DNA from: Dehalococcoidia bacterium
GTDB taxonomy: Bacteria > Chloroflexota > Dehalococcoidia > UBA2979
Direction of reading: 5' to 3'
Length of the DNA stretch: 44,604 nt
Assembly: GCA_019694855.1 (NCBI GenBank)
Contig: JAIBBD010000013.1
Coordinates: forward strand, 1-44,604
How positions within the stretch are numbered: position 1 is the first letter of the stretch; the number at the start of each line of letters is the position of its first letter. Shown here one piece after another: positions 32,634-36,934 of this stretch. The notes beneath the pieces were generated by a model. It was not told the origin of the DNA and ran no database searches. It was given only the letters and a program-made list of their open reading frames with translations. The translations under genes were made by a program, and so were the position numbers.

Positions 32634-33788
32634 ATGAAACTTTCGGGTATCAGTCAGGTCGAGGTGGTAGCGCGACGCGGCAACAACCTCGATACGGTGT
32701 GCTTCAGGGGCTTCGCTCCCCTGGCGCACCTTGCTGCAATCTCCCAAGCGGACGTCTTCGACCAGGACAAGAATCCCGACGGGCTCCAGCGCGACCTGTC
32801 TCCTAAGCATGCAAGCGAAGCGTATGACTACGTTCGTCGCGAGCGAGTGATCGATCAGCCGAGGGCATTTCCAGAAGTCGTCCTGAACGTGCGCGACAAG
32901 AAGGTCGTCGAGATCGAGGAACTCAATGGAGGCTCCGAGGACCATCAGCTCGTCCGCCTGAAATTCAATCTGGATCGAATGCGGGACGACGCAGTCCACG
33001 TAAGCCGCGTCGACGGGAATCACCGCCTTTTCTATGCGCAGGGCGATGACCGAACGCGCGACCCCCTTCTCACAGAGGCGCCGTTCCAGATCCACGTCGG
33101 ACTGACGCGCGAGCAAGAACGCTCACTGTTCGTGGACATCAACTCCAACCAGAAGGGGCTAAACAGCTCTCATTTGGCAGTCATGCAGAGCAAGCTCACG
33201 CCTGAACAGCGCGAGATTCGGGATCATCTGGACCGCTGGATTGCCACCCGACTGGCAAGTGATCCGGAGTCCCCGTGGCATGGGCTGATTCATCTCGGCG
33301 GGTCGAAGAAAGGCGCTCGGGCTCAAGGGCTCACACGTCTGGCCAACTTCGCCAGCCTCCAGAGTGGTGTTGGCCGCACGCTCGCTAAGAGTCAGTACAT
33401 TCACGATCTGACGGACGCCAACGCTCAGTACGCGATCATCCGCAACTACTGGCAGGCGGTGCGAACGGTGTTTTCGGAGGAGTGGGCGAGCCCAAAGGAC
33501 TACCTCCTCCTGCGAAACACCGGCGTCTTGAGCATGTCCATCCTTGCCGGCACGATCATTGATCGGTGCATGCCCCAAGGTCGGGCGGGTATTTCGGATA
33601 TGGCCTTCTACCTACGCCAAGCACACACGCGGTTCGAGTGGTCGACAGACGGGGAGCTGGCTGGGATGTCCGGCAACCGTGCAGCTCTCACGATCGCGGG
33701 GGCAATGGCGGAGGAGTTGGCAGATGAAACGGGGCTTACGGCCATTCGTGACTTGCAGAACATGCTCGTTGGGCAGACGAGCGGCTGA
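32634..33788 (+). CDS. DGQHR-domain protein (DndB-like family)
   Basis: A 384-aa protein, ATG 32634 behind GGAGGA. VDGNHRLFYAQG (residues 126-137) is the DGQHR signature in which Asn replaces Gln. LFVDINSNQKGLNSSHLAVM (about 165-184) is the second hallmark. DGQHR proteins include DndB, the regulator in DNA phosphorothioation systems, and many uncharacterised relatives next to mobile or defence genes. No dndCDE, dpd or nuclease gene is adjacent here. A/T-ending codons are far commoner than in neighbours and the promoter is strong and palindromic, so this is likely a recent insertion into the phage-cluster/valS junction. Confidence 0.8.
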   Translation: MKLSGISQVEVVARRGNNLDTVCFRGFAPLAHLAAISQADVFDQDKNPDGLQRDLSPKHASEAYDYVRRERVIDQPRAFPEVVLNVRDKKVVEIEELNGGSEDHQLVRLKFNLDRMRDDAVHVSRVDGNHRLFYAQGDDRTRDPLLTEAPFQIHVGLTREQERSLFVDINSNQKGLNSSHLAVMQSKLTPEQREIRDHLDRWIATRLASDPESPWHGLIHLGGSKKGARAQGLTRLANFASLQSGVGRTLAKSQYIHDLTDANAQYAIIRNYWQAVRTVFSEEWASPKDYLLLRNTGVLSMSILAGTIIDRCMPQGRAGISDMAFYLRQAHTRFEWSTDGELAGMSGNRAALTIAGAMAEELADETGLTAIRDLQNMLVGQTSG

Positions 33789-34040: not shown

Positions 34041-34069
34041 TTGCCCGCCCCGCCCCACCCACCTACCAT
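34041..34069 (+). promoter_or_regulatory. Candidate valS promoter overlapping a G-quadruplex motif
   Basis: TTGCCC (34041-34046) and TACCAT (34064-34069) have 17-base spacing, ending 9 bases before the leader-peptide ATG. The spacer contains, on the minus strand, four G-runs of 3-4 separated by single bases (complement of 34044-34060), a near-ideal quadruplex motif. More G-runs follow within 34023-34042. Confidence 0.5.
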
Positions 34070-34078
34070 CGAGGCGAC

Positions 34079-34117
34079 ATGCACACGCCCGTAGTAGTAG
34101 TACCCGGCGGCGGCTAG
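34079..34117 (+). CDS. valS attenuator leader peptide, 12 aa, four consecutive Val codons
   Basis: ATG CAC ACG CCC, then GTA four times (34091-34102), then CCC GGC GGC GGC and TAG (34115-34117): M-H-T-P-V-V-V-V-P-G-G-G. GTA is a poorly used Val codon in this G+C-rich sequence, so a run of four makes translation sensitive to charged tRNA-Val. GAGGCG (34071-34076) could serve as a ribosome-binding site. An intrinsic terminator follows 31 bases later and valS 105 bases later. This is the classical layout of ribosome-mediated transcription attenuation, with the regulatory amino acid matching the downstream synthetase. Confidence 0.85.
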   Translation: MHTPVVVVPGGG

Positions 34118-34148
34118 CCGGCCCTCTCGAGGCCGCACGCCGCCATCT

Positions 34149-34176
34149 GCCCCGCTCCGGCGGGGCTCTTTGTTTG
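34149..34176 (+). terminator. Attenuator terminator of valS
   Basis: GCCCCGC (34149-34155) pairs with GCGGGGC (34160-34166) around loop TCCG and is followed by TCTTTGTTTG. CCGCC at 34140-34144 can pair either with GGCGG in the leader-peptide end (34106-34114) or with GGCGG of the terminator's 3' arm (34159-34163). That gives mutually exclusive structures, as in attenuators. Confidence 0.8.
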
Positions 34177-34222
34177 CGGCCCGCCCGCCGAGGCGCCCGC
34201 ACCCGCATCGAAGGACAGCACC

Positions 34223-36934
34223 ATGACCACCACTGAGAGCAGCCCCCGCGAGATGGCCACCGCCTACGAGCCTGCGCAGGTCGAGCAGCGCCTCTACGAA
34301 TGGTGGGAGGCCAACGGCTTCTTCCAGCCCTCGGGGCCCGGCCCGGACGGCAAGCGCCAGCCCTTCACCGTCATCATGCCGCCGCCCAACGTCACCGGTG
34401 AGCTGCACCTCGGCCACGCCCTCACCACCGCCATCGAGGACATCCTCGTCCGCTGGCACCGCATGCGCGGCGACGACACCCTCTGGCTCCCCGGCGTCGA
34501 CCACGCCGCCATCGCTGTCCAGAACGTCGTCGAACGTGAGCTGCGCCGCGAGGGCATCGAGCGCCGCGACATCGGCCGCGAGGAGTTCCTGCGCCACGTC
34601 TGGACCTGGGTGCACAAAACGCGCGACGCCATCGGCCGCCAGCACCGCCGCCTCGGCGCCTCCGCCGACTGGACCCGCGAGCGCTTCACCATGGACGAGG
34701 GCCCCCAGCGCGCCGTCCGCCAGACCTTCGTCAACCTCTACAACGACGGCCTCATCTACCGCGGCGAGCGCCTCATCAACTGGTGCCCCGACTGCGGCAC
34801 CGCCCTCTCCGACCTTGAGGTCGAGCACGCCGACGAGCCTGGTTCCTTCTGGTACGTGCGCTACCCGGTCGCCAACGAGAACGGCGAGGCGACCGACGAC
34901 TACATCGTCATCGCCACCACCCGCCCCGAGACCATCCCCGCCGATACCGCCGTTGCCGTCCACCCAGAGGACGACCGCTACCGCCACCTCATCGGCCGCC
35001 GCGTCGTGGTCCCCACCTCAGCCCGCGCCATCCCGGTCATCGCCGACGAGGCCGTGAGCATCGAGGGCGGTTCGGGCGCCCTCAAGGTCACCCCCGGCCA
35101 CGACCCCGTCGACTTCGAGATCGGCCAGCGCCACGGCCTGCCCGTGCTTACCGTCATCGGCCTCGACGCCCGCATGACCGACGCCGCCGGCGAGTACGCC
35201 GGCCTCGACCGCTTCGAGGCGCGCGAGCGTGTCGTCGCCGACCTCGAGGGCCGCGGCCTGATCGAGAAGATCGAGGCCTACACCCACTCCATCGGCCACT
35301 GCCAGCGCTCCGGCACCATCGTCGAGCCGCTGCTCTCGGAGCAGTGGTTCGTGCGCACCGAGCCCCTCGCCCGCCCCGCCATCGAGGCGGTGCGTGACGG
35401 CCGCATCAAGTTCGTCCCCCAGCGCTTCGACCGCACCTACTTCCACTGGATGGAGAACATCCGCGACTGGACCATCAGCCGCCAGATCTGGTGGGGCCAC
35501 CGCATCCCCGTCTGGTACTGCGACGACTGCCGCACGATGACGCTCCCCGCCGCCGATGACCCCATGGTCGACCCGGCCACATGCGCAGGCTGCGGCTCCG
35601 CGCGCATCCACCAGGACGAGGACACCCTTGACACCTGGTTCTCGTCCGGCCTCTGGCCGCACTCCACCCTCGGCTGGCCTGACCCGGACGCCCAGGATCT
35701 GCGGCGCTACTACCCGACGCAGGTGATGGAGACCGGCTACGACATCATCTTTTTCTGGGTCGCCCGCATGATCATGCTGTCCCTCTACAACATGGACGGC
35801 GTCGTCCCCTTCGAGACGGTCTACCTGCACGGCCTCGTGCGTGCCCCCGACGGCTCGAAGATGTCGAAGTCGAAGGGCAACACCGTCGACCCGCTCCAGC
35901 TCATCGACAGCTACGGCACCGACGCCCTGCGCTACGCCCTCATTTCGAGCACCTCGCCGGGCAACGACCAGCGCATCACCGACCAGCGCGTCGAGGCCGG
36001 CCGCAACCTCGGCAACAAGCTCTGGAACGCCTCGCGCTTCGTTCTCACGATGGTCGAGGACGGCGACGACCTCGCCCTCCCGCCCGCCGGCGCGCCCCTC
36101 CCCCTCGAGGACCGCTGGATCCTGTCGAGGACCGAGCGCGTCGTCGCCTCCGTCGACGAGCTGCTCGGCAAGTTCGAGCTCGGCGAAGCGATGCGCCAGG
36201 CGCGCGACTTCTTCTGGGACGAGTTCGCCGACTGGTACATCGAGGTCGCTAAGGTTCGGGTCCGCGACGGCGACCGCTCACCCCTGCCCGTGCTCGTGCA
36301 CGTCCTCGACCGCACGCTGCGCCTGCTCCACCCCTGCATGCCCTTCGTCACCGAGGAGATCTGGCAGCGCCTCGTCACCGTGCGCCCCGACCCCGCGGGC
36401 GCGTCCGCGTTGATCGTCGCCGCCTACCCGCAGGCCGACCCCGCCCGCCTCGACGATGAGGCCGAGCACACCTTCGCCGCGCTCCAGGACTTCGTCCGAG
36501 GCATCCGCAACGTCCGCGCCGAGAAGCGCGTCGAGGCGGCCCGCTGGGTCGAGGCCTACCTCGTCGGGGCTGAGGCCGCGGCCGCGGCCCGCGCAGCCGC
36601 CCCCGCCATCGAGGCGCTCGCCCGCGTCCGACCGCTGCACATCGTCGACACCCCTGAACAGGCTCCCACCGACGGCGTCGTGACCGCCGTCCTCCCGGTC
36701 GGCCGCGTTGTCCTCCCCATGGCGGGCCTCTTCGACCTCGACGCCGAGCGCGCGCGTCTCCAGAAACAGATCGCCGAAGCCGAGGGTGAAGTCACGCGCC
36801 TCGAGGCCAAACTCGGCAACGAGCAATTCACCGCGCGCGCGCCGGAGCAGGTCGTGGCGAAGGAACGGGAACGCCTGGCCACCGCCCGCACCCGCCTCGA
36901 CGGCCTGCGTCAGTCGCTGGCGGAGGTGGGGTAA
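34223..36934 (+). CDS. valS: Valyl-tRNA synthetase
   Basis: A 903-aa protein of usual length. The HIGH motif is LHLGH (residues 61-65, within PPPNVTGELHLGHAL). The KMSKS motif is DGSKMSKSKGN (KMSKS at 546-550). The editing (CP1) domain includes YIVIATTRPETIPADTAVAV (about 230-250). Zinc-ligand-like Cys pairs occur in NWCPDCG and in WYCDDC...CAGCG. The C-terminus is the coiled-coil arm typical of ValRS (LFDLDAERARLQKQIAEAEG). It charges tRNA-Val and hydrolyses Thr-tRNA-Val. Expression is probably controlled by the upstream attenuator. Confidence 0.98.
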   Translation: MTTTESSPREMATAYEPAQVEQRLYEWWEANGFFQPSGPGPDGKRQPFTVIMPPPNVTGELHLGHALTTAIEDILVRWHRMRGDDTLWLPGVDHAAIAVQNVVERELRREGIERRDIGREEFLRHVWTWVHKTRDAIGRQHRRLGASADWTRERFTMDEGPQRAVRQTFVNLYNDGLIYRGERLINWCPDCGTALSDLEVEHADEPGSFWYVRYPVANENGEATDDYIVIATTRPETIPADTAVAVHPEDDRYRHLIGRRVVVPTSARAIPVIADEAVSIEGGSGALKVTPGHDPVDFEIGQRHGLPVLTVIGLDARMTDAAGEYAGLDRFEARERVVADLEGRGLIEKIEAYTHSIGHCQRSGTIVEPLLSEQWFVRTEPLARPAIEAVRDGRIKFVPQRFDRTYFHWMENIRDWTISRQIWWGHRIPVWYCDDCRTMTLPAADDPMVDPATCAGCGSARIHQDEDTLDTWFSSGLWPHSTLGWPDPDAQDLRRYYPTQVMETGYDIIFFWVARMIMLSLYNMDGVVPFETVYLHGLVRAPDGSKMSKSKGNTVDPLQLIDSYGTDALRYALISSTSPGNDQRITDQRVEAGRNLGNKLWNASRFVLTMVEDGDDLALPPAGAPLPLEDRWILSRTERVVASVDELLGKFELGEAMRQARDFFWDEFADWYIEVAKVRVRDGDRSPLPVLVHVLDRTLRLLHPCMPFVTEEIWQRLVTVRPDPAGASALIVAAYPQADPARLDDEAEHTFAALQDFVRGIRNVRAEKRVEAARWVEAYLVGAEAAAAARAAAPAIEALARVRPLHIVDTPEQAPTDGVVTAVLPVGRVVLPMAGLFDLDAERARLQKQIAEAEGEVTRLEAKLGNEQFTARAPEQVVAKERERLATARTRLDGLRQSLAEVG

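Follow-up and report, generated by a model that had tools for sequence, protein, structure and literature searches.

A candidate valine-codon leader-peptide attenuator upstream of valS in two families of Chloroflexota

The region upstream of valS

The window, by which we mean the whole 44.6-kb stretch of DNA analyzed, contains the valine--tRNA ligase gene valS preceded by a promoter-like element, a short leader open reading frame (ORF) with a run of GTA valine codons, a hairpin designated P1, and an intrinsic terminator (Table 1). The leader ORF lies directly 3′ of the TACCAT box of the promoter-like element, with its ATG at 34079 and a TAG stop codon at 34115-34117. The consensus of the boxes preceding the leader in relatives is TTGACC/TACCAT; a strict sigma-70 scan made no call for the element in the window. 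The sequence GTAGTAGTA is unique to the leader within the window, where it gives two overlapping matches, and was found in none of 100 shuffles. The P1 hairpin is formed by pairing of GGCGGC (34109-34114) with GCCGCC (34139-34144), encloses an inner hairpin, and can be extended by pairing of 34106-34108 with 34149-34151. In the terminator scan, the terminator stem (34149-34166) has seven G-C pairs, a loop of 4 and the tail TCTTTGTTTG, which ends 46 nt before the valS start codon at 34223. An earlier sequence-only reading of this locus had listed the ATG, the four GTA codons, the TAG, a CCGCC segment at 34140-34144, the terminator and the 46-nt gap, and the window sequence has all of them where that reading placed them. 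The product of the gene 5′ of valS (32634-33788) has a DGQHR domain (TIGR03187, 103 bits), which also occurs in DNA-modification defence clusters.

Table 1. Features of the valS upstream region in the window
Feature	Position	Strand	Evidence
Promoter-like element: -35 TTGCCC, 17-nt spacer, -10 TACCAT	34041-34069	+	Sequence; same boxes in relatives
Leader ORF MHTPVVVVPGGG, 12 codons	34079-34117	+	Position, start codon and GTA run conserved in 39 genomes
Run of four GTA codons (valine), presumed site of stalling	34091-34102	+	GTA bias of leaders; tRNA-Val(UAC) gene present
Hairpin P1	34109-34144	+	Folding; conserved in the window's family (f1)
Intrinsic terminator GCCCCGC-TCCG-GCGGGGC with U-rich tail	34149-34176	+	Terminator scan; near-invariant stem in f1
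valS, valine--tRNA ligase, 903 aa, presumed regulated gene	34223-36934	+	NCBIfam TIGR00422, 1041.8 bits

Conservation and codon content of the leader

The regions upstream of valS were compared across 44 f1 genomes (f1 being the family of the window and the sole one sampled from its order), eight genomes of another family, f16, and a single genome per family for 15 further families in the class. Forty of the 44 f1 genomes could be evaluated, the other four having contig ends or a missing gene. The leader arrangement is found in 31 of these 40, counting one degraded copy (L023), and in all eight f16 genomes. The same layout thus lies upstream of valS in 39 genomes, which far exceeds chance occurrence. 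Nine of the f1 genomes were added after the pattern had been defined, and eight of them carry the leader; the ninth belongs to an AT-rich group (g9). The terminator is present in every intact leader-bearing member, with the stem GCCCCGC/GCGGGGC or a close variant in nearly all f1 members. The alignment of relatives that the sequence-only reading had proposed, covering the ATG, the valine codons and the terminator, therefore supports its central idea of a valine-codon leader peptide and an intrinsic terminator serving valS.

In nine AT-rich f1 genomes (groups g4, g7 and g9), valS has no leader, and no such valS leader was found by a GTA-ORF screen or by eye in the single genomes representing the 15 other families. 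No Rfam family matches the leader. The valS tree is compatible with a single origin shared by f1 and f16 (p-AU 0.77). In this tree, the AT-rich members lacking the element nest within f1, suggesting that the leader was lost there. The degraded leader of L023 consists of a short frame with GTA GTA and weak hairpins, with no proper U-tract nearby; this genome adjoins AT-rich members without the element and looks like an intermediate of loss. In another family (f25, L112), a TTGACC-TACCAT promoter lies immediately 5′ of valS, with neither leader nor terminator. A search across the class with a DNA pattern of fixed spacing proved too strict and was abandoned; the matches inspected (L188 and L189) fell inside a coding gene on the opposite strand, at a YYYY stretch.

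Among the valine codons of the 39 leaders, 134 of 151 (89%) are GTA, the rarest valine codon. In relatives that have the leader, the valS genes use GTA for 25 of 1559 valine codons (1.6%), and the valS gene of the window uses it for none of 75. Typing that covered at least the 30 best-scoring tRNA loci of the genome gave tRNA-Val genes with the anticodons GAC, CAC and UAC. Because these three isoacceptors are present, GTA is probably read by a single tRNA, Val(UAC), that has little other work.

The leaders are 7-21 codons long. In 36 of 39, the start codon follows the end of a TANNAT box by 6-9 nt (9 nt in the window), the mean score of this box is 10.4 compared to 5.9 (sd 0.2) in shuffles, and in most f1 members a TTGAC-like box lies upstream of it at a distance of about 17 nt. 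Given the short distance between the -10 box and the start codon, the leader mRNA is probably leaderless or nearly so, if the transcript starts at the usual distance past the box. The start codon probably functions without a Shine-Dalgarno site.

Pairing between the leader end and the terminator

We consider it likely, with a probability of roughly 0.8, that a ribosome-mediated (trp-type) attenuator responding to charged tRNA-Val(UAC) controls transcription of valS. The RNA made from the promoter would be leaderless or nearly so, and would begin with the codons of a 7-21-residue leader that has GTA codons at its end. With Val-tRNA in good supply, the ribosome would reach the stop codon and cover the arm at the leader end (arm A), so that P1 would not form, the terminator would fold, and transcription of valS would stop. 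When Val-tRNA is scarce, the ribosome would wait at the first GTA codons, leaving arm A free to pair downstream, and RNA polymerase would read through into valS. Translation of the leader, ribosome stalling, read-through and the response to valine are all features that we infer from sequence.

The spacing of the elements is consistent with this model. Counted from the first base of the final GTA codon, P1 begins after 3-10 nt, mostly 6-9 nt. Relative to the stop codon, its start varies between -13 and +3 nt, and in f1 it ends 0-4 nt before the terminator stem. If a ribosome is assumed to shield some 12 nt past the first base of the codon in its A site, arm A remains accessible while the ribosome is stalled at the first GTA and is covered when the ribosome is at the stop codon.

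The antiterminator is clearest in f16. In one example, arm A (GGCTCGTTG) pairs with its downstream partner A′ (CAGCGAGCC), the end of which supplies the opening bases of the terminator stem. As long as the 3′ arm of the terminator has not been made, arm A and the terminator base pair with a predicted probability of 0.85-1.0 in all eight f16 sequences, and in three of them (L170, L172 and L174) the A:A′ helix reduces terminator formation even at equilibrium. On the evidence of sequence and folding, the predicted f16 A:A′ helix is a classical antiterminator with the order 1:2, 2:3, 3:4. In the f16 alignment, 84.7% of cells are paired, compared to 25-54% when the helix is slid, and compensatory UA to CG changes occur; the covariation score was reached by 41 of 500 shuffles. 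In f1, one P1 base pair is changed from AU to GC in three of nine subgroup II sequences. Since the arms hardly vary, covariation lends the helices modest support.

In a minority of f1 sequences, the window included, the helix formed by arm A reaches into or overlaps the terminator base; in the others it ends 0-4 nt short of it. For the window, pairing of the terminator base with the leader-end arm before the 3′ arm is made has a predicted probability of 0.87, achieved by three extra pairs across a 4-nt bulge; across f1, the probability of such overlap is at least 0.77 in only three of 22 sequences, one of them the window. P1 and the terminator coexist in most f1 sequences when the free RNA is folded, and thermodynamic masking of f1 sequences revealed no conserved alternative helix that removes the terminator. 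The mutual exclusion of antiterminator and terminator by which a classical attenuator is defined is thus not seen in most f1 folds. We tentatively propose that in f1 the antiterminator may instead be steric, with a helix lying so near the RNA exit channel that it hinders completion of the terminator stem 0-4 nt downstream, and that this form may be related to the base-sharing overlap form kept in f16; taken together, these two suggestions are possible but somewhat doubtful. If the steric reading is true, the f1 helix acts without sharing bases with the terminator, and the arrangement of helix and terminator could be used to test whether attenuation requires the two to exclude each other through base pairing.

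The sequence-only reading had proposed that a ribosome stalled on the GTA codons covers 34106-34114 and thereby frees CCGCC to pair with the terminator 3′ arm, blocking the terminator. CCGCC can indeed pair with GGCGG at 34159-34163, and when the leader end was masked up to the stop codon, an alternative outcompeted the terminator in two relatives (L014 and L020). However, CCGCC seldom wins against the terminator's own 5′ arm: in folding with masking the terminator kept a probability of at least 0.89 in most sequences and every stalled state, and with the leader end masked it stayed close to 1 in nearly all relatives, those two being the exceptions. The competing helix is also shorter, encloses a larger loop, and is reduced to about 4 bp in subgroup II. 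The proposed coverage conflicts with the geometry as well: a ribosome at the first GTA should reach only to about 34103, leaving 34106-34114 free, and it is at the stop codon that the ribosome would cover this arm. Since the leader-end arm in f16 must be free to form the antiterminator, the polarity of the switch is probably opposite to that first suggested, and we regard the CCGCC switch as quite unlikely.

The compatibility of P1 and the terminator in most f1 folds would favor a leader that is translated but acts in some other way, for instance if slow decoding of GTA affected the coupling of ribosome and polymerase, the stability of the RNA or re-initiation at valS, with a fixed level of read-through at the terminator. 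We consider this unlikely, as the distances from the last GTA to P1 (mostly 6-9 nt) and from P1 to the terminator (0-4 nt) are maintained even though the position of the stop codon varies, and f16 has a clear overlapping antiterminator. That the terminator is constitutive, or that the GTA run is a chance repeat with no regulatory role, is barely credible: the disparity in GTA use between leaders (134 of 151) and valS genes (25 of 1559) contradicts it, as does conservation of the element in 39 genomes, eight of which come from the set added after the pattern was defined.

Comparison with other attenuators and T-boxes

Attenuators of aminoacyl-tRNA synthetase genes have been described for pheST in gammaproteobacteria and for trpS and leuS in Streptomyces (PMC1262725); that study does not mention valS. 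The proposed valS attenuator resembles these in having a short ORF with cognate codons, downstream hairpins, an intrinsic terminator and a synthetase gene as its target. It differs from them in that the target is valS, the phylum is Chloroflexota, the leader start appears to lie on or next to the transcript start, the codons are almost all one rare codon, and the f1 helix mostly abuts the terminator rather than overlapping it. The order of pairings in f16, in which the valine-codon region with A, A with A′, and A′ overlapping the terminator arm correspond to 1:2, 2:3 and 3:4, is that of an E. coli-type trp leader, from which the valS leader differs in its probable lack of a Shine-Dalgarno start and, in f1, in a 2:3 helix located just before 3:4. 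Leaderless polycysteine ORFs acting as attenuators in mycobacteria, as indicated by the title of Canestrari 2020 cited in PMC9094748, appear similar to the valS leader in being leaderless short ORFs rich in codons for the sensed amino acid. The mycobacterial cys operons are reported to have no conserved upstream terminator hairpin (PMC1262725), in contrast to the strong intrinsic terminator at the valS leader.

We found no report of a valS leader peptide or of a leader-peptide attenuator in Chloroflexota in the open-access literature searched. The proposed mechanism would add both valS and this phylum to leader-peptide attenuation. The near-exclusive use of GTA, probably read by one little-used tRNA, constitutes a natural test of the idea that the isoacceptor most informative about starvation is the one on which attenuators rely.

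The T-box riboswitch acts on the same gene and the same signal, uncharged tRNA, in related Chloroflexota, but by tRNA binding, unlike the valS leader, which would sense by translating codons. In an Infernal search, the T-box family RF00230 had no match in the window or in L001, and the conserved T-box core GGTGGTACC was not seen upstream of the window's valS. This agrees with the sequence-only reading, which saw no T-box before this gene; its comparison with Gram-positive bacteria was misplaced, the lineage being Chloroflexota and not classical Gram-positive. The assignment to this phylum is based on the nearest named valS records (L031, L032 and L079), from a contig scan whose matches were distant valS genes of Clostridia and Chloroflexota; the class is probably Dehalococcoidia. 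Matches to RF00230 were found upstream of valS in L032 and L079, both from named Chloroflexota, and in L118 and L127, from two of the 15 other families; among these, only L032 exceeds the Rfam gathering score. The valS leader and the valS T-boxes of relatives would be two unrelated sensors of one signal that can be compared.

T-box-like sequences were also noted elsewhere. In family f3, the region upstream of valS (L117) contains the pieces GAAGGTCGCTCGGGAG and GAGGTGATACCATG, for which cmscan made no call. In the window's own genome, ileS (L132, contig C26) appears by eye to have a T-box in approximately the last 600 bases 5′ of the gene, with the pieces GGGTGGTACCGCGGG...CGTCCCGC and GAACATCACTCC with an ATC specifier, which Infernal missed even at E 0.5.

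In the window's family, leuS has its own conserved short leader ORF with leucine codons (L213-L232), represented in the window's genome by L231 (C53:94580-95100) and seemingly absent from L219, L220, L225 and L227. No Rfam match and no obvious U-tract terminator were seen for this leader. Its ORF starts shortly past a -10-like box and is accompanied by the near-invariant motif CTCG(T/C)CCTTACCTAGGCGGCG, followed by a hairpin.
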